NCBI RefSeq assembly: GCF_008831285.2
Contig: NC_045140.1
Coordinates: 27,670,131 to 27,734,130 of the forward strand
Direction: 5' to 3'
Length of the DNA stretch: 64,000 nt
From: Nymphaea colorata
Taxonomy: Eukaryota > Streptophyta > Magnoliopsida > Nymphaeales > Nymphaeaceae
Below the pieces are notes generated by a model. It saw only the letters and a program-made list of their open reading frames with translations. It did no database searches and was not told the DNA's origin. A program made the position numbers and the translations under genes. This document shows positions 6,844-61,084 of the stretch, piece after piece (positions within the stretch are counted from its first letter, which is position 1; every line of letters begins with the position of its first letter).

Positions 6844-6907
<64 letters not shown>
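6844..6907 (+). repeat. Compound (CT)n(AT)n microsatellite
   Basis: About 10 CT units run directly into about 21 AT units. It lies at the edge of the PR-1 promoter-like relic that follows. Confidence 0.95.
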
Positions 6908-6908
<1 letters not shown>

Positions 6909-9600: not shown

Positions 9601-10073
9601 CTAGCTACGAATGCCATGAAAAGGGTTCTGCTGCATTTGGATGTAGCAATTGATCAGTAGTTTCTGCTCTCCGCTTACATAGTTGTAAAAGCTGATCAGA
9701 CCAAATATTTCCACACAAAAATGGCTCCCCATTAGTTGGTCGCGGTTCTTCTTATTTGATGCCTTTGTGGAGTGTGATATTGTACTTGATTCTCAAGTAT
9801 CAGAGCCTCCTGTTGCTTCTCTGAGTTGATGTCACCCAACCATTTTGATTAGGAAAATATTGACGGTGATTTTTAGCATGTGGAGCTCCTTTGCTTCTGG
9901 TCCTTTCGCATGGGCATTAATTAATTTCTTGTGAAACTTCACGATAACTTTCAATATTGGATGGCCTACTTTTCAAAGATGACCACCAAGCTAACCAGCG
10001 AGCCCGTTCAAATGCCATACTTTTCAAAGATGACGATGAAGGTAACCAGCAAGCCCTTACGTTCATGGTGCTC

Positions 10074-10080
10074 TATAAAT
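10074..10080 (+). promoter_or_regulatory. TATA box of the PR-1 gene at 10209-10712
   Basis: TATAAAT in the context ATGGTGCTCTATAAATTCG, 129 bases before the ATG, matching the core of all other PR-1 copies. A TTGACG motif at 9860-9865, resembling a W-box/as-1 core, lies about 215 bases further upstream; whether it works is unknown. Confidence 0.75.
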
Positions 10081-10208
10081 TCGACGACCTCTCCCCGTTA
10101 GTGTACCACAAGCCCAAGAGCCAGCTCCACTCAAGGAATAACCTGCTTCCTAGACCTGTTCTTTTCAGACATCTACATCACTTTCCTTCCTTTTTTGTGA
10201 TCATCCCG

Positions 10209-10712
10209 ATGGAGTGTTCCCCTCATGCCCGTGTTTGGGTCTCCCTACTGCTAGGCCTTGCCATGCTCATCCATGGCACTCAGGCTCAAAACTCACCCCA
10301 AGACTACGTTGCTGCTCACAACGCTGCTCGTGCCCAAGTTGGCGTCGGTCCAATCTCTTGGGACGATACCGTTGCAGCTTATGCCGAGAACTATGCGAAC
10401 CAGAGGATCGGTGACTGCAGCATGATCCACTCTGGTGGTAATGGTGGCCAGTATGGGGAGAACATCTTCGGAGGCGGTGGTTCTGGGTGGACTGCCGTAG
10501 ATGCCGTGAACTCGTGGGTGGATGAGAAGAGCAACTACGACTACAACACCAACACCTGTGCTAGTGAACAGATGTGCGGGCACTACACTCAGGTGGTGTG
10601 GCAAAACTCGGTGCGGCTGGGCTGCGCCAGGGTCGAATGCAACAACGGTGGCACCTTCATTACCTGCAACTACGACCCAGCTGGTAACGTTGATGGGGAG
10701 CGTCCCTATTAG
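10209..10712 (+). CDS. PR1: Pathogenesis-related protein 1 (PR-1), intact, intronless
   Basis: Predicts 167 residues. The open frame extends upstream to 9957, but the TATA box lies inside that extension and the protein family starts at the ATG chosen here ([20 protein letters not shown]), giving a ~26-residue signal peptide ending GTQA before QNSPQDY. CAP motifs: [47 protein letters not shown] and [11 protein letters not shown]. Six cysteines are in PR-1 positions. The C-terminal 11 residues [11 protein letters not shown] fit the CAPE pattern PxGNxxxxxPY. Compared with its neighbours it has a small glycine/asparagine insertion ([13 protein letters not shown]). Its 3' flank pairs with the frameshifted copy at 42243, so these two form a sub-pair distinct from the arm A/B/C genes. 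It is the best preserved copy of its sub-pair. Confidence 0.96.
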
Positions 10713-14150: not shown

Positions 14151-15650
14151 ATGTTTGAATCTAATTGGAGTTTACGGTGGTAAGAAAAAAAAAAGGGATT
14201 TTAATTGTAAGATATCTAAGGAGAATGGGGGGCGAAGGTGCCTTTTACGATGGAGTAGGATTTGGGGGCGGTTTATGCCAAACCGTCTATTGTTTAAATC
14301 TCTGATCATCTTCCATTCATTGGTTGCACAGTTACCAGGTTGAAGATTGGAGACCCATGAAGGGGAAAACAATGTAGAGAGCCAATAACAACGTTTAGTC
14401 GCTTATGATCCTGTGGTTAAATTAGCAATAGATGGTTTGGCATGAACCTCTGAATTGAAGAAAATGTTGTTCTCATTTATAAATAACCTCACGCCTCTGC
14501 GAGTTCATAAAAGGATACATTTTTGTTAGTGCATGGCAAAAGTACTAGGATACCTGACTTCTAACGTGATAATATTTTCATCGCGATCCATGAATTTAAG
14601 ATCAAATCCTCCTTTCCCTTCTACGCTTAGGCAAGACATTTTAGCAATGTAAATTAGGAATGCGTCTCTCCTGTATATCTCTGTCTAACCTGAGATCTTC
14701 ATCGTCTTTCTACCTCAGCCTGCCATTGACGAGATATAAAGAGCCCATTTCCAAGTTCAGATTGGGTTCCCTATCTAGCACGAGTAAAGAGAGAGAGTGT
14801 GTCCCATTCTAATTTCAGATTGAGTTTGAATACCAGTAGAAGGACATTTTAGAAGAAGAATGACAATGGTCAAGTCTGAACATGGATCTACCTTGGTTGG
14901 TTCAACTCCTTTACCAGCCAAACAATCTCTTTTAACTCCTCATCGTTTTATAACTCCGAGGAGGACTTGCCAATTCATGATGTAAGTAGAAGTTTGAGCT
15001 TTACAGAAGCTACCAAAGAAATAATGAAATGTGTATAGTTGCTTTTGAATGCAAAGAGCTTGTATAACATGACAACTTCACATAACTTCCAATTAAGTAG
15101 AGCAATGTATGTTATCACGCTCCAACGATATCAAACTTAGAAGTTTGTCCCACCACAGATCGGCAAAAATATTATTGGGTATGAATTAAACTTTGGAGAA
15201 AAAAAAAAAAGAAAAGTATGCAGGAAATATATATTATTAAAAGAGGTTTTCATCATTGGCTTAACTTTGAATGGCGCCAATAAAGGAAAAGGAAGCGATG
15301 CAAAAAAAATTGGCCGATTTTTTGAATATCGTCAAATTGGCCTCGTGTTTCGAACCGAAAAGAGACCATTCAAATCGAATCAACTAGTTCGTTATTGTCC
15401 CTCTTTTATTTTGAGATTTTACAGCTATATAGCTGATTTTCTCTGAATCGCCAGCCAGAAAATTGATCAATGTGAATTGGATTTTTTGTAGATTTTTTTT
15501 TCATTTTTTAAAAATATTCTTCTGTTTTTGAAATTTTAATTTAATATAATACCTTAAAACGACCAATCAAATTCATTTTTCCCATTTTTGGCTTTTTTTT
15601 TTTCCATTTCATTCCCGAAAGTCCTTTTATGGATCGACATCATCTATCTC

Positions 15651-34234: not shown

Positions 34235-34308
34235 TGGCCAACCTCTCCCCGTATTTCCATCAGAAGGGCAAGAGTTAGCTCCACGTTAAGGGACGTGTTT
34301 TCTTAAGG

Positions 34309-34310
<2 letters not shown>

Positions 34311-34370
<60 letters not shown>
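34311..34370 (+). repeat. (TC)30 microsatellite in the 5' leader of the broken PR-1
   Basis: Thirty uninterrupted TC units end 25 bases before the ATG at 34396. The same place in arm A (about 1104-1112, minus strand) has only about three units, so the expansion is specific to this copy. Confidence 0.95.
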
Positions 34371-34373
<3 letters not shown>

Positions 34374-34395
34374 TTTGCTTCCTGTGATTAGCCAA

Positions 34396-34859
34396 ATGGA
34401 GCGCTCCCCTGCTGCCCTTGTTTCGGGCTGCCTACTGCTGAGCCTTGGAATGCTCAACCATGGTACTCACGCCCAAAACTCTCCTCAAGACTTCCTTATT
34501 CCTCACAACGCAGCTCGTGCTGAAGTTGGCGTCGACCCAATCTCTTGGGACGACGCCGTCGCAGCCTACGCCCAGGGCTATGCGAACCAGAGGATTGGTG
34601 ACTGCAACTTGGAGCACTCCGGTGGCCGGTATGGGGAGAACATCTTCTAGGGCAGCGGTCTTCAGTTTAATGCCGCAGATGCCGTGGACTCTTGGGTGTC
34701 TGAAAAGAGTGACTACAACTACAGCACCAACACCTATGCCAGTGGAAAGGTGTGCGGGCTGGGCTGGGCTGCGCCAAGGTTGAGTGTAACAATGGTGGCA
34801 CCTTCATTACCTGCAACTACGACCCAGCTAGTAACGTTGATGGGGAGAGTCCCTATTAG
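34396..34859 (+). pseudogene. PR-1 pseudogene: nonsense codon plus deletion/frameshift
   Basis: Starts [20 protein letters not shown] and runs in frame to YGENIF. There a CAG seen in the intact copy at 574-1068 has become TAG (34648-34650). The frame then continues through [27 protein letters not shown], where about 35 bases encoding the CAP1 motif (HYTQVVW...) are missing. The sequence rejoins the family out of frame at [12 protein letters not shown] and ends at TAG 34857-34859. The cysteine in TNTC is Tyr, and the C-terminal peptide has PASN for PAGN. The intact N-terminal part (84 codons) could still be translated but lacks half the CAP fold. Confidence 0.92.
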
Positions 34860-37486: not shown

Positions 37487-37586
37487 TTGAAAACCTTTCT
37501 CCATTATGCTATCACAAGCCCAAAGTACTTGGTTCCTAGATCAGACCACTCTCTCTTTTCTTTTGTTTTCTTCTTGTGATCAGTCA

Positions 37587-38078
37587 ATGAAGCGTTCCCC
37601 TGGCCTTCTTGTTTGGATCTGCCTGCTGGGCCTTGGAATGCTGTTCCGTGGCACTCACGCCCAAAACTCTCCGCAAGACTTCCTTGCTGCTCACAACAAG
37701 GCTCGCGCCCAAGTAGGTGTCGGCCATATGGTATGGGACGCTAACGTTGCGGCCTATGCCCAGAAGTATGCCAAGCAGAGGATCGGTGACTGCAGGCTGG
37801 TACACTCCCATGGGCCGTATGGGGAGAACCTCTTCCTGAGCAGTGTGCACCAGAACACTGCAAAAGATGCTGTGAACTGGTGGGTAGCCGAAAAGAGGTA
37901 CTACAACCACGCCACCAACACCTGTGCCTGTGGACAGGTATGCGCCCACTACACACAGGTGGTGTGGCGCAAGTCGGTGCGGCTGGGCTGCGCCAGGGTC
38001 AAATGCCACAACGGTGCCATCTTCATTACCTGCAACTACTATCCACCTGGTAACGTTAAAGGCGAGCGTCCTTACTAG
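37587..38078 (+). CDS. PR1: Pathogenesis-related protein 1 (PR-1), intact, basic-looking, intronless
   Basis: Predicts 163 residues. The ATG at 37587 (MKRSPGLLVWICLLGLGMLF) is chosen over the upstream in-frame start at 37506, which lies only 20 bases after the TATA box and is not conserved. The signal peptide ends GTHA before QNSPQDF. The CAP core has [33 protein letters not shown] and [11 protein letters not shown]; the usual CGHYTQ is CAHYTQ. Six PR-1 cysteines are present, plus an extra one in TNTCACGQVC. Many Lys/Arg substitutions (AEKRYYNHA, KCHNGA, VKGERPY) suggest a basic isoform beside the more acidic 574 and 10209 proteins. The C-terminal PPGNVKGERPY fits the CAPE pattern. The 3' flank is nearly identical to that of the 574 gene, and the broken copy at 60030 is its arm-C counterpart. 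Confidence 0.95.
   Translation: MKRSPGLLVWICLLGLGMLFRGTHAQNSPQDFLAAHNKARAQVGVGHMVWDANVAAYAQKYAKQRIGDCRLVHSHGPYGENLFLSSVHQNTAKDAVNWWVAEKRYYNHATNTCACGQVCAHYTQVVWRKSVRLGCARVKCHNGAIFITCNYYPPGNVKGERPY

Positions 38079-41416: not shown

Positions 41417-41476
<60 letters not shown>
41417..41476 (+). repeat. (TA)30 microsatellite
   Basis: About 30 TA units in the distal upstream region of the PR-1 copy at 42243. Confidence 0.95.
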
Positions 41477-42733: not shown

Positions 42734-44130
42734 ATATATAGGACATGCCTACATTTGGCTTGTCCTTCTGGCTTTGTAATAAACCGAGCGTAGGCTCGCT
42801 CATCTATATAGAATAACTTGTGAGGGTGGACGTTGGGTAGCTAGCCCCGTTGATATATCCTACGAACTTTATCCACCGTCCTCCGTTGCTTACTTATCCC
42901 GTCAAATAGTATCTACATGTACTTTGTGATAAAAATTGCATCCTTTTCTGTCGCTGTTTGAGAGAGACAAAAAGAGAGAGTCTAATCATGATTTCGGTCG
43001 TCGTCTATTCATGCTGAATGAACGAGCTTGATCCTCATCAACTTCCATTTATAACTGGGCGGCGATGCTCCAACGAAGGAGCTTGATTCATTTTAACTTT
43101 AAAAGTGAAGACAGGCACCATCTTTCATCCTAAAAGGACAAATGATATACGGGAAAACGGCTAGGGTTACTATTTGCAGCACTTCATGAGTGATCAGCTT
43201 AATTCATACCGAGGCACTCGCTTTGCTTTGTCATAAGCAAACGCTACAGCACCAATCAGGTGTACTTTTGGATGTGAACCTTGTTACCATATTTTGATTG
43301 AATATTATGCATCAAATAATGTTAATTGCCTGTTGACAAGAATGACATAGCGTCGCTAGGCGCACCGGAAGTTGCAGCACTTCTGGTCAAGGGTCAGGTG
43401 ATGGATAAAGAGCGCAGTATAGCAGTGGAAATAACCGTCGTCTGACTAGCAGGATAAGGGGCAGCACCTGTGACAAAGAAAATAGAGAGAAGAAAGAGGA
43501 GAAAGCGAAAAAGAACTGTATGAGGGTTTACTTCTGAGAGGCGCACAGTTGATTTCTCAACGATAATGTATTAAGATAAAGACGCTGGGTTTTATAGACC
43601 GCCTCTCAAGATTTCTCCAATTACCCAGCTACGGTTATGGCAAGGAGATTTAAGGTAAGAATCAAAACGGTAACATAATATCATGATTTATTTCTTGTTT
43701 TAATTCTATAATTGCAGGATCTTCTTTGCAGTTACAAAATGAAAGGATAGGGCTCAGGGCCACTACCCAACATGGGGTTCATGGCTGCCTAGCTTGTCCA
43801 TGGTCATATTTGAATACGCCAGGTTTCTGGTGCAGTCGGTACTACCAGCTTGTCCAAATGAGTCATACTGATGTGATCACATAAGCCCATACCATGATGT
43901 GATCACATAAGCCCATACCAAAATTTAAGGTCTATCAAACTTTAAACTTCAATCCAGATCTTGTTCAGTACCGCTTCCCGATTTCCCACTAACAACACAT
44001 GAATTGAAGATGAGGTTGCTTTTGAACTTGTCCGTAAGGTTCTTACATTTGAAGAATTTCAAATTATAACAAATCATGATGCAGTTCGAATACATCGACC
44101 AATTTGCATATAAGTAATTAAGGTGGCGAC
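42734..44130 (+). repeat. PR-1 3' flank paired with 10713-11700
   Basis: Carries the same block order as behind the 10209 gene. A tandem duplication of GATGTGATCACATAAGCCCATACCA occurs at about 43871-43920. Poly(A) signal AATAAA at about 42778-42783. Confidence 0.65.
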
Positions 44131-44139
44131 TGCTTCTGT

Positions 44140-46252
44140 TTTTATAAATAGTTATGACAAGTATTTGCCGATGGCTTTTGAGATATCTTAACCGTACTTT
44201 CACACAATTTTTCGTTTCTTCTCATGCTTACTTCAGGATCAATTTTGTAAAAATAGATCAAAACACGTCGCTTGCCTGTTGCCTAAATGATACAGCGTAT
44301 CAACCTGTATTGGCCAATATTTTTAACGTGATTCTATCTTATTTTTATTTGCAGATTTGTTTATTAAGTAAATTAAAAAAACTTTAAAATTTCTGGGTCG
44401 TTATACCCGTGATGGGCCGAAGCTGCTTTTGGGTCCACCAGCGAGCCGCGTCGTAGATCACGTAAGAAGGTCTGTTTGTTGATTTAATACTTGGTAGATA
44501 CAATCTGATCTGTCCCTCATCGTAGGGCTGCGCACGAGCAGAGTTGAGCTCGAGCTCAGTCAGCTTCAGCTTGGCTCGATTCATGTTTAGTCAGCTCGAG
44601 CTTGACACGAGCTTTACATTTTCAACTCAAGTTCGACTCAGGCGGCTCGTTTATTTTTTATTCATGCATGCTTTTCCACACTGACTATGCTATGGTGGTG
44701 TGTTCGGTAATGACACCTGCCATGAGAAGTGCTTAAAGGCAGGAGAAAAAGTGTGGGCGAGAAAAAAAAAGGAAGGAAAAATAACGATCAACTTGGTGAG
44801 AAAAGAGAAATTGGTGAGAAAAGAGAAAAATGAAAGGGAAAATGAAAATGTTGATTGATTGGAAAGCTTAAGATGAAATTGAGAATTGGGAGTGACTCCG
44901 TTTGTCTCCCTTTTGCAATTCCAATGAAAATCTTGTCGGGAGTGACTCCCATTTTATTGTCCCTTTTGCAATTGAACGATTGCAAAAGCACTTCACCGAA
45001 CTTGTTGAGAAGATGGGTTTAATTTTGTTCTTCAAACCCAAAATCAAAGTCAACGGTCAAATATCATAAGAAGACGTCACTCTTGCAGTCAGTCGTGCAC
45101 CAGCAGAGCCTAGGATGTTAAAGCTTGACTCGTTTGGAATGACTGGATCATTCATGTCTTAATGAGCTCGGTCGAGTTGAACTTATTTTTGGAAGCTCGA
45201 ACCAAGTTTAAGCCAATTGAGTTTTGAAACATCAAACTTCGTTGAATGAGGTAGAATAGCAACTCAAACTCATAGGTTAAAAAGTTTCAATTTTAAGTTA
45301 ATGGGGAAAACAAAACAACTCACCCATCGTGAGGAAAGCATATCAAAACATATGCATTTTTTTTTCCGTATGTCTAAAGTTTTGTTTTTCCAAAAAAAAA
45401 AAAGAAAAAGAAAAGCCAAGTGGGGAATGAATATGAAATATTGTTTTAGTTGTGCTCTTGTGGGGAGCCTCTTTGGTAGTGGTGGTGGAGAAGGAGGTGA
45501 CCGGTTGCCCGTGGCCGGTGGGTGGTTTGGGTCTTTTTTTTTTATATATATGCCAAAGGGAGAGTGTTGTGTAATTGTAGCTTTAGAATTGTCTAGATCT
45601 GTAAAATGATTTTAATTATTAGAGGAATTGTCATCTGCGTTTATTTTTTTCCAATGAATTGCATCTTTGACATGTGCAGCGGTGAAGGAGTCGTCTCTCC
45701 TCTTTTTTTTTTTTGTACGTCAGGTTCTTTTGGAGAGGCACTTCTTGTTTTCTTTGGACATAAACTATGGAAGTTCTTGCTTTTGGGATCCGTAGGGTCT
45801 CTTGCAAAAGATGATTATAAATAGTGCTGCGCTCATTAGCATTCCATACCCTTTTCGTACAAAATGTGGACATGAATCTCAGTCATCAAAACAATAAAAT
45901 CTATCTACCTAAAATGGCATTGCGACGCATAAATAAGTTTTTTAAGAGTCAACAACATCCTTTTAAGTATATAAAAGTCACTTTTGTGTTGATTTTCATA
46001 CTATAAAACATAAAGATTAATAAAGTTTGAGTTGAAATAATAAGTGGTTGTTATGTATATATATGTTTTGTTAATTTTTTTTTTGTCTTTCATTATGATA
46101 CAGACCAAGACCCATTTGTACAGGATCTGTATTTTTACTGAATTAGTTTTTTGTTCAAGTTACCAAACAAGAACACCATTCATCTAAATCCAAACAATTC
46201 TACTGATAGTAAATGTGAGATTGGAAGAACAAATTATGACTGTGTGCATACA

Positions 46253-46290
<38 letters not shown>

Positions 46291-46400
46291 AGCACTTAAT
46301 TTAATATATTAATGTACTCATTTTATTGCATGATGATACATAGTATCATAAGTAGGATTCGGTTAATGAGCAGCAACATGGTTGAAAGTGGGAAGCAGCG
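44140..46400. other. Intergenic DNA, no gene recognised
   Basis: 44530-44660 and 45120-45240 contain oppositely oriented GAGCTCGAGCTT-like sequence, suggestive of a decayed inverted-repeat element. Open frames at 45301-45824 are low-complexity. A (GT)n(GA)n microsatellite lies at about 46254-46289. Confidence 0.4.
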
Positions 46401-46413
46401 ACTGGTGGTTTGC

Positions 46414-46671
46414 TTAGGCAGTTTGGATGGGTTCGGCAATGAGAGAGTAGACACGGTCCATGGACTCATGCTTCAAGACACCAACGCTATCTTCATAATC
46501 GTACATGCACTGGGAGACCCTCGCAATGTTGAGCGCCACGTCCATGAAGGATCGAGAGAAGGCAGTATGTTGCTGATGTTGCTGAGCCGAGTGCATCTCC
46601 CTGTTCAGCCTCCTCCATGCATCCTTTAGCAAGTGCCATATGTGCTGCCATGTTTGTTCCTCCGCTACCAT
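46414..46671 (-). pseudogene. Orphan terpene synthase last exon
   Basis: A minus-strand frame of about 85 codons ends at TAA. It reads AWRRLNREMHSA, then SFMDVALNIARVSQCMYDY and RVYSLIAEPI at the C-terminus. This is the final-exon pattern of plant terpene synthases (W-x-x-LN-x-E ... NLAR-x-x-QxxYxxxD ... DRVxSLLxxPI), closest to the TPS-b/g type. A CAG acceptor-like site lies just upstream at the exon edge. The metal-binding DDxxD and NSE/DTE exons are absent from the neighbouring sequence; repeat DNA begins within about 10 bases. I infer a fragment left by rearrangement, without catalytic capacity. Missing exons outside the expected intron length cannot be fully excluded. Confidence 0.65.
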
Positions 46672-46679
46672 TGTCTGGT

Positions 46680-47540
46680 TATGTTAACGATAAGGTTGAA
46701 AGACAATCGTTTTAGAGATATTTAAGGAAAAAATCCTCGCAAGATCAATCAAAACTAATCATAAAGAAAAAAGAAATTTTTTCTGCAAAAATCAGATTTA
46801 GTTTCTCATATGTATCATTGCCAAGATTTTAGCGTTAAATGATAAGGTTGAAAGACAACCGTTCTAGAGAAATTGAAGGAAATAATCTTAGCAAGATCTA
46901 TCAAAGTTAATGATAAAGAAAAAAAAAACTTTCCACAAAAATTAGATTTAGTTTCTCAAGTTTATCATTGCCAAGATTATAGGACCTTCAACTATTTAAG
47001 TTCGTTTCATGCATTGTGTAACCAAGGCTCATGGTGGCCTTTCAGGGTAAAAAACCATATACGTTTAATGAAAAGAATTTTTTCATGCTGGTTTTTATTT
47101 GTTTTACTTATTTTTTATTTTTTATCTTGGTATCAGAGCAGGATGCTTGATGAAAAAGAATGAAGCCCATAGGTGGTCTGCATGCAACCAAATTCATTGT
47201 TATCTTCTTCACCAAAATCTTGAGAAATCAAACTTGGGTTTTCTGAATTGCTGCCAAAGCACGATCTACCTTCACAAAAAACTTCATAAAGCAAATTTGG
47301 GCTCGTCAAATCATTGCCAAAGAGATGGCATGATCACCTTAGAGGATGTTAACGATAAGTTTGAAAGTCAATCATTCAAGAGAGATTCAAGGAAAGAATC
47401 CCAGCAAAATCAATCAAAATTAATGATAAATGAAAAATAAAATCTTTCCACAAAAATCAAATTTAGTTTTCTATGTTTATCGTTATCATGATTGTAGGAA
47501 CTTCAACTATTTAAGCTTGTTCTATGCGTAATTATTTAAG
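46680..47540 (+). mobile_element. LTR-like repeat cluster with a primer-binding site
   Basis: A roughly 150-base unit starting GTTAACGATAAGGTTGAAAG occurs three times in direct orientation at about 46684-46830, 46836-47000 and 47346-47530. Between the second and third lies TGGTATCAGAGC, the usual binding site for the 3' end of initiator tRNA-Met, followed by about 200 bases without retrotransposon coding sequence. The layout resembles a decayed non-autonomous LTR element (TRIM-like). Confidence 0.4.
47128..47139 (+). other. tRNA-iMet-type primer-binding site motif
   Basis: TGGTATCAGAGC is the standard primer-binding site of many plant copia and gypsy elements; here it follows a T-rich LTR-end-like stretch. 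Confidence 0.5.
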
Positions 47541-47544
47541 TTTG

Positions 47545-48440
47545 TTAAGTATCAATTATGATTTGGTGTTTATGATTCATTTAGGATATTTTTGTGGGGG
47601 CGGTACCTTGCTCAAGAATTATGATATTCTGAGAATGTAGCGTTATTTTTTTATTTCACCTCTCTCTCGAGGCGTATGCAAACAATCGGTTGTCTTATTT
47701 CTGAAAAGAACAAAAGAAAAAACAAACTATGTATCTATTACTGCAAATGAAACTAATTGTTCGCTCTTCATGAGTAACTAATCTTCAAAATCTAGAATTA
47801 AAGATTATCAATATTTTTTAATTAATGATAAAGCGAATTGCATATATCTATATATATATTCACATCAAGAGAAAAATGGTGCTTCTGCTCTGGTCAGACC
47901 CGTGGTACCAAGAATGATAGAAATTTAAGGAGGTTGAGTCCAATTCAAACATGGGACCTGGAGCTATTAGGAAAATGACTTCTTTTTTTGATGCATACAT
48001 TTAACTAATCTTTGTAATCTGACAACAGTCCTTCTAGAACGAACGCCTGGGACAGAGTTGCTAACAATGACTTTGTTTTCCAGAACATGATTCCTCACAT
48101 CATTTCCATTTTACATCTCAAGCGTTGTTTCTCAAACTAACTTTCGTTTAGGAAACCAATTCTAACTAGCCAACTCATGAACCATTTTTCCCATGAACAT
48201 GATTCCTCTTGCAGCCTTTCAGTTTGCAGGTAGAGCTGATGAATAAATAGCAAGCTCATGGCTAACCGACAATTTATTTTTGTAAGGGGAGCCGTGCAAT
48301 TAGCAGCTCATTATGCATAAATGGGTAATTAGCACAAACACCGAGTGTCAAGTCGGCTTGTTTTGCCCTGCCAATGCTTAGCTAACGTGTAATATGAAGG
48401 TTACAGACTTATATCTAAGCTTGATAATGTTTTGCTGGTT
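47545..48440. other. Intergenic DNA, nothing recognised
   Basis: AT-rich and without long frames; no similarity to the rest of the window noticed. Confidence 0.45.
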
Positions 48441-48447
48441 ATTCAAT

Positions 48448-49224
48448 CTAATGATCTTTCAAATCCTTAGATTTAGATATTGTTGCTAGTGGATGTTTCA
48501 TACTTGCTGTTTGTTGTTTATTTTGGATGTTATATATTCATTCTGATTTGATTTTTGTTAATTGGTTTGTGTCTTTTGCAAATTTGCCGCAGGTTTTTTT
48601 TAGTGCATGTACATGTTTTTGTATTTCCTTTTATCATTAGGAGTCGCTGAAGAAAAAAATGTTGGCGTAACTTCATTTGTTTTGGTCTATTTATGTACAA
48701 ACAAAAAACCATCAACCATAAGTCAAGGCCAAAATGCGCTTTGCTTTATTGCTTTTGCCTATTTTTATACCAAAAAAAACCATCACACATTCAAACTTAG
48801 CAAACACCAGACAACCTCATTAAAGTCCTCTGGTTATGTGTTAACCAGAGGACTTTAATGAGGTTGTCTGGTGTTTGCTAAGTTTGAATGTCTGATGGTT
48901 TTTTTTGGTATAAAAATAGGCAAAAGCAATAAAGCAAAGCGCATTTTGGCCTTCGGCTTATGGTTTTTTGTTTGTACATAAATAGACCAAAACAAATGAA
49001 GTTACGCCAACATTTTTTTCTTCAGCGACTCCTAATGATAAAAGGAAATACAAAAACATGTACATGCACTAAAAAAAACCTGCGGCAAATTTGCAAAAGA
49101 CACAAGCCAATTAACAAAAATCAAATCAGAATGAATATATAACATCCAAAATAAACAACAAACAGCAAGTATGAAACATCCACTAGCAACAATATCTAAA
49201 TCTAAGGATTTGAAAGATCATTAG
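48448..49224. repeat. Near-perfect long inverted repeat (hairpin), arms about 385 bases
   Basis: The left arm 48448-48836 and right arm 48842-49224 are reverse complements with only a few differences (for example AGTCAAGG against TCGGCTTA-side changes near 48720/48955), separated by TGTGT at 48837-48841. A transcript in either direction would fold into a nearly perfect stem of about 385 base pairs. Both arms carry the same 60-codon frame on opposite strands, which is a consequence of the symmetry and not a gene. No transposase, terminal motif or target duplication is evident. Confidence 0.93.
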
Positions 49225-49755
49225 AGAAAAAGAACAATCATAACAAAAGGAACCCATACAACCAAAAGAATTTTTATTACTGGCAAGAATCAGTCATCAC
49301 TTTTTCTTAAACAGCAAGCATAGGTTTAATACCAACCGGCATTGTCATTGACAATGCATTAACCCCAACCAGCATTCTTCAATGTTACAAGGACAAAATC
49401 AACTTAAATCGCTTTTATTATCACCTTCCACGGAGCAAATGAAAAGAAAACAAAAAGAAAAAACTTCCTCTCGGCAATTATAAAGTCTTTGTAGGAACTG
49501 CACTCGGTCCAATTGCCCATTCGGCTACCTTCCTCAGTTCAATTTCCTAATTACGGACTTGTATTGCACCAAACACATCCAGGGAACAAGTGAAAGCGGA
49601 AGGACGCAGTTCGGAAGGCAAAATCGCAGACCAAATCCAACATTAATATTTGTTCAACAAAATTGAGAAACATACTGAAGCCCCAAAAATGGAAACGAGA
49701 CATAATGGCGCCCATTTTCAATAAATAAAGGATGAAGAGAAACGGCAACCAACCA
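49225..49755. other. Intergenic stretch between the hairpin and the UPF1 relic
   Basis: No gene recognised. On the minus strand it directly follows the UPF1-like exon, so part of it could be the beginning of a former intron. Confidence 0.4.
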
Positions 49756-49759
49756 GATG

Positions 49760-50266
49760 ATTAACAATATGAGACCCGGACGTGTTGCCCCTTGAATTGC
49801 AGAACCACTTGCGGCAGGACGGGACGACGCAAGCAGGGTTCTGCACCCCGCAATACCGGGACGCATGCTCAGTGAAATCCCCTCCACATGTCCAACCTCA
49901 AAGCCCTCCTCATCGCCAGTTGCCTCGAAGCTCAGCTCACCGATACCCGCAGCCAAGGCATCTGTCACGCCCTGGTTCGACCGGCCTTTCGTCCCGGTAG
50001 GCCTGGGAGACGACGCGGCCGTGTTGGCAGACGCCGTATCCGCAGGCAGATCGCGGTTGTTCGACTCGTTGGCCGCCGCGGCACCGGTGGTAGGGAGGCG
50101 AGTTGTTGGGAGACCACACGGTCGACCTGATCGGCTGGCTGAGCTTCCTGAATTCGTAGTCGTAGTCGTCGCCTTGCGTGTTGAATTCTAGGAAGGTGTA
50201 AGGGTCGCCTGTGTCGGGCTGGGACGCTGTCTCGTAGAGGTTGGGGACGACATGCCGCGCGGCCAT
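49760..50266 (-). pseudogene. UPF1: UPF1 (regulator of nonsense transcripts 1) first-exon relic
   Basis: The minus strand begins MAARHVVPNLYETASQPDTG and contains YTFLEFNTQGD, the conserved start of plant UPF1, the RNA helicase of nonsense-mediated decay. Later pieces in two other frames carry DALAAGIGELSFEATGDEEG and then [17 protein letters not shown] and [20 protein letters not shown], which is the start of the cysteine/histidine-rich zinc domain that binds UPF2. At least two frameshifts separate the three pieces (near 50100 and 49890). About four residues are missing between NPACVV and PSCRKW, where plant UPF1 from memory has a further cysteine. Similarity stops after NHLV; no helicase exons follow. 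GC content is clearly higher than in the surroundings. Confidence 0.85.
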
Positions 50267-51225
50267 GGTGGGGGGAAACTGGAAAGGAAGGAAACCCTAG
50301 CCCCCTCGTGCTTCCCCCCTCCCGTGGAGAAAGACGATTGATTTCCGTTGAAGGGGTTCGCGCGCTGGGTTAGAGCCAGAGTTAGGGTTTCTTCTCCCTT
50401 TCGAGAGGACGAAGGAGGAAGAGGGAGAGGGGAAAGAGAGAAGAATTAGAGAGGACGAAGGAGGAAGAGGGAGAGGGAAAGAGAGAGGGAGAGGGAAAGA
50501 AAGAAGAAAAAAGCGGACAAAAAATCGATGAAGGGGAATGCGATCGCGTCCCTCAAATAGTAACGATGAGTTAAGAGAAGTAACTGCGGTTAAACCCAAA
50601 GTAACCGAGTCTTTGGTGACGCGTGGGCGTAGGGAAAGATCAAGCTCAGGGATTTCGTGCGAAAGACGTCGGACTCAATCGGGTTGACATCTCTGACAAC
50701 CGACCCGCACGGGAACATTGGTTGGAGCTGCAAACGGATCGAATATGGCTTTACGATTTGATTCGAATGCTACCCGTTATTACTGCTTTTGAACTTTAGA
50801 CCAGACCCATTTGGACCCGATACAAACAAAATTAATTCGTAGAGTGGATTTTAATACTACAAGACGGGCAATGGCTGTGGTGATTCGAACACAAGCAAAA
50901 AGGATGAGGCCTGATTAACTCACTCATTAAGTGAGACAGGCAGGAGGACCCGTTTTACAATAGGATTCTATTGCAGATTTAGGTCCAATATTTGGTTTAA
51001 TTAAGATGTTCCTTCTTCTAGCCTTTCGTTGCCCTCCTTTTGATTTGCAAGTTGGGATGAAAAGAAGCCCGAGCCTTTCTTTCTTTCTTTTGCTCTTTTA
51101 AGATCTAAACCAGTGAATAAAATTATTGCTCTTTGAGGTCCACTTTTTTTATAAATTGACCATCCAGGTGCAGGTCCAGAAAAGAAGATCCAATCGTCAT
51201 GGGCCGAAAATAGAAATTCGAGCAA
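50267..51225. other. Former UPF1 5' leader/promoter and intergenic DNA
   Basis: 50330-50530 is strongly purine-rich on the plus strand (pyrimidine-rich in UPF1 sense), as expected of a plant 5' leader. The rest to 51225 has no recognisable gene. Confidence 0.4.
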
Positions 51226-51229
51226 AAGA

Positions 51230-51860
51230 TCTGGTTTCTAAGTTTGGGTCGTAGACCTAGGAAAACATTAATTCAAAGTTTAAATTCAAGTTCATCAACT
51301 AAAGATGATGCAAACGTTCATTAATTGATCTAGGTATGGCATTTGGACTTAGGATCATCCTAATAGGGTCTTAGGTTCAAATCCCAACTGAGAGTTGACT
51401 CAATTCATATTGATTCTTGATTCAAAGTCCATGATCCAAATCTGAAATGAAATTTAACGATCCAACGTGAAAGTTTAGGGATTTAGGGTTTTGGATAAAG
51501 GTCTGAAATCTGGATCCGAGTAACATGAAATCCAAATCCAAAAGTGTTGATATGAAAGCCATTTCTAGGATTAAATCTTCACAAGGTCTAAGTTCAGTAA
51601 TCCAATTCTTTCAATCCAAATCATATTCAAATTTGTCAAATCCAAATTCAATCTTGTATTTGATCTTAAATTTGATATTTAAATCCAATTCATTGAGATC
51701 TGAATACAATTCCTTTAAGATCCACATGTCCAACCTTATTGAGATTTGGGTTAAACTTGCTAGGCTTTAGGTTGAGTCTAACTAAGGTTTGAGTTTAACT
51801 TGGCTAAGATTTAGCTTTAGACTATGATATAGTTCTAACGGGACTAGGGTTTCATCTCTG
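51230..51860 (+). repeat. Dispersed repeat, copy 2 (first copy 39300-39930)
   Basis: Direct copy of 39300-39930 with extra bases around 51330-51380. Rich in AATCCAAATCC-like motifs. Non-coding. Confidence 0.65.
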
Positions 51861-54799: not shown

Positions 54800-54999
54800 G
54801 TTGGTGGCAGAGGGACTCCGCTGACAGAAGTCTCCCATTTTTTTTTTCCCTTTCTGCAACACTCGTTTTCTATTCTCCTGTTTCTCTCGGCAACATTTCT
54901 TGAAAATCTATTTCATTTGATGCAATTCAATTATTCTGACACCAAATCTAGCTCCTTTATCTGTTTCCTTAGTTGCTTTGTTTTTTGTTGCTATTGCAG

Positions 55000-55330
55000 A
55001 CATGTCTGTTCAATGTTAACATTCATTGGATGGATGTAAGCAGAAGGTAAACAAGCTACTGCAAGAAATAAATGGTGGGTGTTATTGTTCAAATTCTTCG
55101 TGCACCGTTCTTCGATCCCTAACTTTTTGTTTTTCCTTGGATATTTTTGTACATTCGAGAGTTTTCCACTTTATCTTCCATCTATGTACACTCTTAAAAC
55201 ATTTTTTCTCTGTTGGTACTCATGTTTCTTTATCTTGTTATCTGGTTCATTTGTCATGGGATGGACGACCACCATTAATGCGGAACAGGGCAAGATGCAT
55301 AACAAAAGAGGGTGAAGGTCTCAAGCGATG
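55000..55330 (+). pseudogene. HMA-domain (HIPP-like) relic, left copy of module C
   Basis: A TATTGCAG acceptor precedes the exon with DGCKQKVNKLLQEINGG. After an intron-like stretch come TTINAEQGK and then, beyond a short insertion, sequence reading VSSDVDQQEKLIQL, which fits the VSGxVDxxxLIKKL part of HIPP domains. The CDGC site is again split by a one-base deletion. Confidence 0.6.
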
Positions 55331-55490
55331 TGGATCAGCAAGAGAAACTAATACAATTGTATTAGCCAAAAAGATGAAGATTAGAAAGGCCAGCCCCAGC
55401 AGTAGCAGCAACAACAACTAATAATACAACAACTAATACAGAAGCAGCAAGATCTAGCCATTCTAACCTTCATTCTTTTGGCTCTTGCTA

Positions 55491-55835
55491 CTACATTAGG
55501 TGTTCTTGGAGATCTACGTCGCCTGATACTATCACCTTCCCCTGTTCTGCATCATTGGTGGTCGTCAATACCCATGACAAATGAACCACATAACAAGATG
55601 AGAAAACTTGAGTATCAACATAAAGCAAACGTTTTAAGAATGTACATAGTAGGAAAACAAAAGGGGAAACAGTCGGATGTACAAACATATCTAAGGAAAA
55701 ACAAAAGAAATAAAAAGCAAAAAAAAAAAATTTATGAATTTGAAGAATAATATACCCACCATCTATTTCTTGCAGCAGCTTCTTTACCTTCTGCTGGTAT
55801 CCATGACAGTGAATGTTAATTTTGAGCAGACACAT
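55491..55835 (-). pseudogene. HMA-domain (HIPP-like) relic, best preserved copy
   Basis: The minus strand encodes [19 protein letters not shown] and LLQEIDGG, then intron-like hydrophobic sequence, then [18 protein letters not shown] and LQEHLM in the same frame. The last part is the textbook HIPP continuation, which secures the family assignment. The metal site is CHGY instead of CxGC. A 122-codon frame reads straight through the intron-like part; I regard this as accidental. Confidence 0.65.
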
Positions 55836-55969
55836 CTGCAAGGGTAACAAATAAAGCAACTCAAAAATCAGATAAAGGATCTACATTTAGGCTCCAAACA
55901 ATTAAATTGCAGCAAATGAAATTTATTTCCAAGAAAAACAACAGAGAGAGACAGAATAATAGATGATGA

Positions 55970-56640
55970 ATATTGTGGACAGAGAAAAAAGAAAAAAACA
56001 GGAGAAGGGGCTTCCTAGAGTAGCCTATGACATGTTTGATAGCTCAGGGAGACACTGTAGACTGGTTGAATAATGATTTCTTATTTTCCGAACATGAGGC
56101 GTTTTTTTGTAATTTTCTCAAACCCATTATTTTTCATTAAATGTTAAAAAAGGTATGTGCATATTTTTCAAAATAAATAATTTTTTTTTATTAACTTTGA
56201 GGCATCGATCTCCTCGACTTCCATGCATGGAAATGTTCATTCGTTCTCCTCCGTCAATTCCATCATTGAAATTGAAAAATGTGGAATTTTAGCTTAGCGG
56301 TAAGTTTGGTTTAAGTTTATGAAAAGTATCCCCGTCCGACTTTGGCTTTGAATCTGAACGCAATTGGGAACTCAAAGGACTTGAAATACCCGAGGTTGGG
56401 TGAATAGTAAACCTAAGAAAAACAATGTGGGCCGACTGTGACACTGACCCCTGTGTCCATCAGATCTGTCGCCTTACCAACATTAATTGGCCTGAGGAAT
56501 AGATACTTCCATTCATGTCGTCTTCCGTTACCCGGTCAGTACTCTTTTGCGTTTTGATTTGTTCTAATGGTTCTACTTTCCCATTATGTCTTTGCCTTTT
56601 GATTGGTTCTAATGGTTCTTCTTTCCCAGTATATATATAC
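55970..56640. other. Non-coding flank of arm C
   Basis: Colinear with about 31480-32050 (GGAAATGTTCATTCGTTCTC block at 56230 and 31741). A 180-codon minus-strand frame spans 56460-57002 but has no counterpart in arm B and no recognisable domain. Confidence 0.45.
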
Positions 56641-60029: not shown

Positions 60030-60479
60030 ATGGAGCATTCCCCTGGCGTCCTTGTTTGGTTTAGCTTACTGCTGGGCCTTGGAATGCTAATCCATGGCGC
60101 TCACGCCCAAGACTTCGTTGCTGCTCACAAAGTGGCTCGCGCCCAAGTAGGTGTTGGTCCTATGGTATGAGATCTTACCGTTGCGACCTATGCCAACCAG
60201 AGGGTCGGTGACTGCAGGCTGAAATGCTTGGGCGGGCCGTATGGGGAGAACCTCTACGCTACGTGAGTACACTATAGAAGATGCCGTGAACTTGTGGGTA
60301 GCCGAAAAGAGGCACTACAACTACACCACCAACACCTGTGCGACAGCCACTACACACAGGTGGTGTGCCGCAAGTCGTTGCGGCTGGGCTGCGCCAAGGT
60401 CAAATGCAACAACGGTGCCATCTTCATCACCTGCAACTACGACCCTCCTGGTAACTTTGTGGGGCAGCGTCCCTACTAG
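60030..60479 (+). pseudogene. PR-1 pseudogene with several lesions
   Basis: Arm-C counterpart of the intact gene at 37587. It starts [20 protein letters not shown], lacks NSP-type residues after the signal peptide (HAQDFVAAH), and meets TGA at 60168-60170 where the family has TGG (Trp). Downstream about four codons are missing in VATYANQR. A second stop follows GENLYAT, and about 13 bases are deleted in TNTCA...HYTQ, restoring the last frame. That frame ends [11 protein letters not shown] and [11 protein letters not shown] at TAG 60477-60479. VVW is VVC. The poly(A) signal at 60567-60572 is intact. Confidence 0.92.
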
Positions 60480-60566
60480 GTATATAGTGCGTGCCAAATT
60501 AACATTTGGCTTGGCCTTTAATTTATTTTGCGTTGTAATAATCAGAGCAGCAGCTCGTCTACGTCG

Positions 60567-60572
60567 AATAAA
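60567..60572 (+). terminator. AATAAA poly(A) signal behind the broken PR-1 at 60030
   Basis: AATAAA in CGAATAAAATGTAAGACTGG, conserved with the copies at 38165 and 476 (minus). Confidence 0.5.
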
Positions 60573-61084
60573 ATGTAAGACTGGATGCATACGGATACAG
60601 TTGTGTAAATAAATAAATGTATTTGATATATTAGAGGCCATGAATCTACCCTCCCCGATGTTCAATGCAGATGCATGAAATTCCCAAAAAAAGACGAATA
60701 GAAAAGGATGCCATGAAACTTTTTTGTCGCAAGAGGGTTAGCAGCGGCGACCGATTGTGCCACTATTGTGTATGTTACGCCGGCATGCTGCTGTTGCTTC
60801 AGTGATCAAAAAGAGAAAGGTGGAAGGCGGATAGGAGGGTAACATGTCATGATTGTTCATGTAGGATGAACAAAAAAATATCATATTAATTTGCCTTCGT
60901 ATTCTCATTGCGAAAATCTACTAGATATAGGACTCAACTCGTCCGTATGAATCTCAACATTCCTGTTGGTTTTAACAGGAGTAATAAGGTCAAAAGCCTT
61001 TAAGGTCCCAAGATATGATTGTTGTCAAACCTAAATGGCAAAAAAGAGAACCTTGATTTTAAAAATTGGAAGTTTTTGATCTGA

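Follow-up and report, generated by a model that had tools for sequence, protein, structure and literature searches.

Long palindromes with short loops are regarded as unstable. In plants, such structures have been considered as possible starting points of small RNA genes, and the inverted-duplication model of MIRNA birth is said to go back to Allen et al. in 2004. According to accounts of this model, a piece of a gene or pseudogene gives rise to a long hairpin (PMC1820830, PMC3237417). In yeast and human, inverted duplications with a very short centre, in which one arm copies the adjacent sequence, have been described and related to fold-back or template switching (PMC10622511, PMC3907307, PMC10766186). 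The yeast centres are reported to lie at natural inverted repeats of 3-15 bp and were taken as pointing to intra-strand fold-back annealing (PMC10622511). Template switching has also been proposed to both create and maintain hairpins, a single event being able to give a perfect stem and later ones to restore pairing, and the largest pattern quoted in that report measures 59 bp (PMC8794818). In the sex chromosome W of willow, where two palindromes were described over a 200-kb region, differences between lineages that agree between the arms are presented as evidence of conversion (PMC7023750).

This article describes a near-perfect inverted repeat of 779 nt in the water lily Nymphaea colorata, contained in a window (the whole stretch of DNA that was analysed) of 64,000 nt on NC_045140.1 (C3:27670131-27734130; genome of 407.8 Mb in 783 contigs). 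The locus shares with the yeast and human cases the very short centre and an arm that copies its neighboring sequence. It differs from them in that its arms are shorter than 400 nt, it resides in a plant genome, it was later segmentally duplicated and its mechanism is deduced from sequence only. Its size (about 390 nt per arm) also separates it from the template-switch hairpins mentioned above. As with the willow palindromes, differences on which both arms of a copy agree are read here as a sign of conversion, but the structure spans 779 bp with a 5-nt loop, lies within a duplicated gene cluster and offers two informative columns only. We consider it likely that the palindrome arose by inverted duplication during DNA repair or replication and not from a mobile element, through fold-back template switching followed by a microhomology join. 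Each of the ingredients, namely fold-back duplication, microhomology joining, pseudogene hairpins and conversion between arms, is already known, and it is not claimed that a comparable case is absent from the literature. The features of the locus are listed in Table 1.

Table 1. Features of the palindrome and its surroundings, in window coordinates unless a contig is given; copy 2 is the second palindrome on the same contig.
Feature	Position	Strand	Remarks
Inverted segmental duplication	42789-51239	inverted	Other copy at C3:27281442-27289840; 95.8% over 8533 columns
Left flank, dispersed repeat cut at the palindrome	45444-48446		Parts recur twice on C9 and once on C4
Microhomology ATCTAAT	48446-48452		Where left arm and left flank meet
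Left arm	48447-48836 (390 nt)	+	Inverted copy of right arm
Left arm, outer part	48447-48665	+	UPF1-intron-like; mirrored at 49007-49225
Inner arm	48666-48836	+	Mirrored at 48842-49006
Tip deletion	48822-48848		27 nt over the hairpin tip, absent in copy 2
Loop TGTGT	48837-48841 (5 nt)
Right arm	48842-49225 (384 nt)	-	Native; terminal part of the UPF1 fragment
Base deletion	49224-49226		17 nt gone from the window; right base of the hairpin
Right flank, UPF1 intron sequence extending the right arm	49226-49425	-	Based on the match of 49045-49425
UPF1 upstream region, exon 1 (broken frame) and start of next intron	49418-51118	-	86.4% to C4:21422875-21424580

Alignment of the left arm with the reverse complement of the right arm gave 379 identical columns out of 390, with 5 mismatches and one 6-nt gap, which bears out the near-perfect hairpin with a five-base loop recognized in the initial annotation; the limits of 48448 and 49224 given there proved one base too narrow at each end, the real ones being 48447 and 49225. 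The RNA folding proposed there as a check confirmed a strongly stable structure: the predicted energy of 48447-49226 was -639.6 kcal/mol, the mean for dinucleotide shuffles (n=20) was -158.9 (sd 7.5) and none of the 20 shuffles was as stable as the native sequence. Among perfect stems with a loop of 3-20 nt, the longest that the window contains measures 50 bp with a loop of 5 and is found at the centre of the palindrome, while five resamplings of the window by a first-order Markov model contained longest stems of 10-11 bp. A chance origin is excluded. The window contains no match to an Rfam family at gathering score, and a tRNA scan of it found none.

The palindrome is surrounded by a cluster of PR-1-like genes and gene fragments (574-1176 on the minus strand; 9948-10712, 34279-34650, 37491-38078 and 60223-60612 on the plus strand), whose blocks have been duplicated several times in direct and inverted orientation. 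A CAP domain was detected in all three of the proteins tested (574-1176, 9948-10712 and 37491-38078), and the members at 34279-34650 and 60223-60612 were assigned by eye. Short perfect or near-perfect self-palindromes also occur at 41417-41476 (60 nt) and 6861-6908 (46-48 nt).

The origin of the arms was traced by searching the genome for related sequences; in all whole-genome searches only the best candidates were scored and very common words were skipped. The left arm returned 7 matches, corresponding to the two arms in the window, two arms of a second palindrome at C3:27283440-27284197 (copy 2), about 434 kb from the first, and short pieces on C4 (two) and C13 (one). The C4 locus encodes UPF1, an RNA helicase: the Pfam domain UPF1_Zn_bind was detected in its exon 1 frame, and a frame farther downstream has regulator of nonsense transcripts 1 as its PDB match (E 6e-16). 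Segment 49045-49425 aligns on the minus strand with C4:21429810-21429406 (85.0%), and parts of the left arm match the same gene at 48451-48600 (92.7% to C4:21429634-21429783) and 48624-48665 (92.9% to C4:21430158-21430198). The C4 stretch matching the right arm lies between two UPF1 exons and is presumably an intron, the order of the exons being assumed from general knowledge of the gene. A likely donor of the arm sequence, which the initial annotation had suggested looking for elsewhere, is thus the UPF1 intron on C4. Compared with C4, the UPF1 fragment of the window shows an internal jump of 4.8 kb, and exon 1, a single open frame on C4, is broken into three frames in the window, hence this region is a pseudogene, a decayed 5' fragment of UPF1. 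The alignment of the right arm with C4 crosses the outer end of the arm and proceeds into the right flank, with no breakpoint seen on that side; it includes a 17-nt gap in the window copy at a place where copy 2 has none. Since the UPF1 alignment continues across its outer end, the right arm is the native one and the left arm the copy.

The inner part of the arms could not be related to UPF1 in this way. A whole-genome search with 48660-48841 returned 4 matches among the best candidates scored, each of which is an arm of one or the other palindrome; comparison with the four fetched regions gave a best E value of 0.003, and neither a source of these roughly 170 nt nor any unrearranged copy was found in the genome search. 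This counts against the preferred explanation, as the end of the fragment before fold-back is uncertain.

The left side of the palindrome is of a different nature. Sequence 47500-48446 gave 8 matches in the whole genome: one each in the window and in copy 2, and six pieces distributed over four further places. Three of these repeat copies reach the point of the join (C9:19705309-19706049, C4:21496563-21497124 and C9:2619749-2620007), and were compared, whereas the fourth place (C4:23977150-23977394) matches the far part of the repeat only. Past the join all three continue into unrelated sequence containing GCAATGAGGCAAC and never into the arm. The left arm is therefore joined abruptly to a repeat, while the right arm is continuous with the UPF1 intron, as fold-back would predict, and the new junction carries a 7-nt microhomology: ATCTAAT is present in the donor (right arm of copy 2 and UPF1 on C4) as well as in two of the three repeat copies, the third having ATTTAAT. 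On its left side the palindrome thus ends at a microhomology of 7 nt, where two sequences that differ in origin meet. No target-site duplication was seen at the palindrome, whose flanks differ and whose right arm extends into native sequence. When the continuation of the repeat (first 1500 nt past the join at the three loci) was sought in the window, two of the three had no match and the third showed one weak match (66%) at 15455-15552.

Other observations concern the sequence left of the palindrome. Within the flanking repeat, 46681-47497 consists of three units of about 152 nt, the later ones being 63% and 80% identical to the first. Farther out, 44904-45403 (minus strand) matches C4:21422087-21422584, immediately upstream of UPF1, so this piece and the UPF1 fragment lie on opposite sides of the palindrome in a circularly permuted order, which may reflect integration of a DNA circle or simply a repeat.

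Copy 2 belongs to an inverted segmental duplication that includes the palindrome and both flanks (Table 1). Its left join is the same as in the window; according to a four-arm alignment the arm bases and the centre differ, and within each locus the two arms differ from one another. We infer that the palindrome is older than the duplication of its region. Between the segment copies, substitutions were counted at 66 of 4567 sites to the left of the palindrome (1.4%), 52 of 1949 sites to the right (2.7%) and 9 of 753 sites inside it. Inside the palindrome, substitutions have accumulated about as fast as in the flanks, with no sign of constraint; an early impression of sequence constraint on the hairpin, taken from the 95.8% blast identity of the entire segment, vanished once substitutions were counted. 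Near the right end of the duplicated segment, at 50844-51093, substitutions are much denser than in most other parts (22 in 233 aligned sites), possibly owing to misalignment beside gaps or to conversion with another copy.

Comparison of the four arms also provided hints on the later behavior of the structure. Leaving out the centre, two columns of the alignment group the arms by copy and none groups them by side, therefore the arms were identical or nearly so when the segment was duplicated. One of these columns has G in both arms of the window and C in both arms of copy 2; the other is a 1-nt T indel (TT versus TTT). The remaining variable columns are private to single arms, including a compound 6-nt loss in the right arm of the window. 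The C13 relative has G near the substitution column, as judged by eye in a loose alignment, in which case the C of copy 2 would be derived in both arms. Resting on these two columns, conversion between arms, or template switching within the hairpin, is suggested as the better reading, favoured also by how seldom parallel substitutions arose in the simulation without conversion described below. Of the two columns the substitution carries more weight than the indel. Assembly polishing could homogenise the arms. The initial annotation had proposed that such symmetry must be either very young or under repair by conversion. This comes close: the palindrome is older than a duplication whose flanks have since diverged by 1.4% and 2.7%, and the two columns suggest conversion. 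The observed/expected CpG ratio is 0.46 in the palindrome (9 CpGs), 0.62 in the stretch to the left and 0.73 in that to the right. A clear deamination pattern was considered and discarded, as the few arm changes in the four-arm alignment are mixed.

The two copies also differ by losses at the tip and at the base of the hairpin. Copy 2 retains the 17 nt missing from the base in the window, and UPF1 on C4 has them with two differences. The aligned flanks, about 6.5 kb, contain six gaps of at least 10 nt (30, 14, 10, 28, 12 and 17). Two more such gaps, placed at the tip and the base, would fit cleavage of a hairpin or cruciform extruded in vivo.

These observations can be ordered into a probable history of the locus. 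A piece of UPF1 comprising the upstream region, exon 1 and part of a later intron would have been transferred to this site, where it decayed. Next, a break or a stalled replication fork may have exposed an end of the pseudogene fragment, which would have folded back and primed synthesis, copying about 390 nt of its own strand, after which the new end would have been joined to the dispersed repeat through the common 7-mer ATCTAAT. A second copy of the segment would afterwards have arisen about 434 kb away in the opposite orientation, and the palindrome would have persisted in both copies, its arms exchanging sequence and short stretches being lost at the tip or base.

Other explanations of the origin and the likeness of the arms were weighed against this one. 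Artificial palindromic long reads are reported as a known error after whole-genome amplification (PMC6218980), and a self-reversing read incorporated into the consensus would produce a structure of this kind, as the initial annotation had considered. This is very unlikely and hardly credible here because a second, differing copy exists about 434 kb away: the two separate loci have different arm mismatches and different centres together with an identical left join, and the arms inside each locus are not identical to each other. The palindromic form would also be expected if a piece of UPF1 had been captured by a transposon of fold-back or MITE/MULE type whose terminal inverted repeats are very long, and the window does harbor three further fold-backs, long and older, that belong to a single family. 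These are located at 3738-4205/4346-4820, 30437-30866/31022-31439 and 54838-55994, measure about 1.0-1.2 kb each with arm identities of 71-78%, show no match to the palindrome and possibly represent a fold-back transposon family that expanded as the gene cluster was duplicated. When the left arm (48447-48841) was compared with the window by blast, the right arm was the only match and none of the other fold-backs appeared; the left flank is a repeat and the right flank UPF1 intron, with neither a right element end nor a target-site duplication; and among the best candidates scored, the inner arm was found only in four arms, all belonging to one duplicated segment. A transposon with terminal repeats was rejected on account of the missing target-site duplication and of the right flank that continues the arm; this makes the fold-back element put forward initially an improbable source, and inverted duplication followed by a microhomology join is retained. 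As to the exchange between arms, the two by-copy columns might instead be parallel mutations or polishing errors, with recency alone accounting for the likeness of the arms. The columns are only two, one of them differing by a single nucleotide within a short run of T, and a simulation without conversion (200,000 runs), which models substitutions only and leaves the indel outside, still produced one or more parallel substitutions in 2.1% of cases when the flank rate was applied and in 0.5% when that rate was halved. However, a substitution and an indel both group by copy and none the other way; this alternative is considered rather unlikely, and arm exchange is preferred.

A different matter is whether the palindrome has a function, for which a neutral scar is the default reading. 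It might be a natural hairpin-RNA locus in which a transcript from the UPF1 upstream region runs through the palindrome and gives rise to siRNAs of 21-24 nt acting on the UPF1 intron or on the locus itself, a proposal that can be reconciled with an origin by inverted duplication. The predicted RNA stem is near-perfect, the UPF1 upstream region and exon 1 are located 5' of the palindrome on the minus strand, and 28 of 756 24-mer positions (both arms) exactly match the fetched UPF1 region of C4, 18 of these 24-mers on the C4 plus strand at C4:21429654 to 21429737, in the intron. Moreover, inverted duplication is the main origin reported for pseudogene-related plant miRNA genes (PMC3237417). The likeness is to an intron and not to the mRNA, however, the 9 substitutions in 753 sites follow the flanks with no sign of constraint, and in plants, methylation and self-silencing are reported for hairpin transgenes built as a perfect inverted repeat (PMC9263138). 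The locus resembles the MIRNA birth model in the passage from a gene or pseudogene piece to a long hairpin, and departs from it in that its arms consist of intron plus sequence with no source found and that it is known from sequence alone. A hairpin-RNA function is viewed as unlikely. A more elaborate version, in which the UPF1 pseudogene is transcribed from its own captured upstream region, siRNAs from its hairpin act against the UPF1 intron and conversion keeps the hairpin perfect, is distinctly improbable. UPF1 itself limits RNA silencing; were this version true, self-targeting siRNAs would tune UPF1, a core RNA-decay factor.

With inverted duplication as the preferred reading, the palindrome can be read at the level of single bases, including its source gene, its join, its later duplication, signs of arm exchange and the losses at tip and base, which are the points where an extruded cruciform would be cut. 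The two copies serve as a natural replicate. The locus thereby offers a plant test case for the birth and decay of inverted duplications, from which hairpin RNA genes have been proposed to originate.
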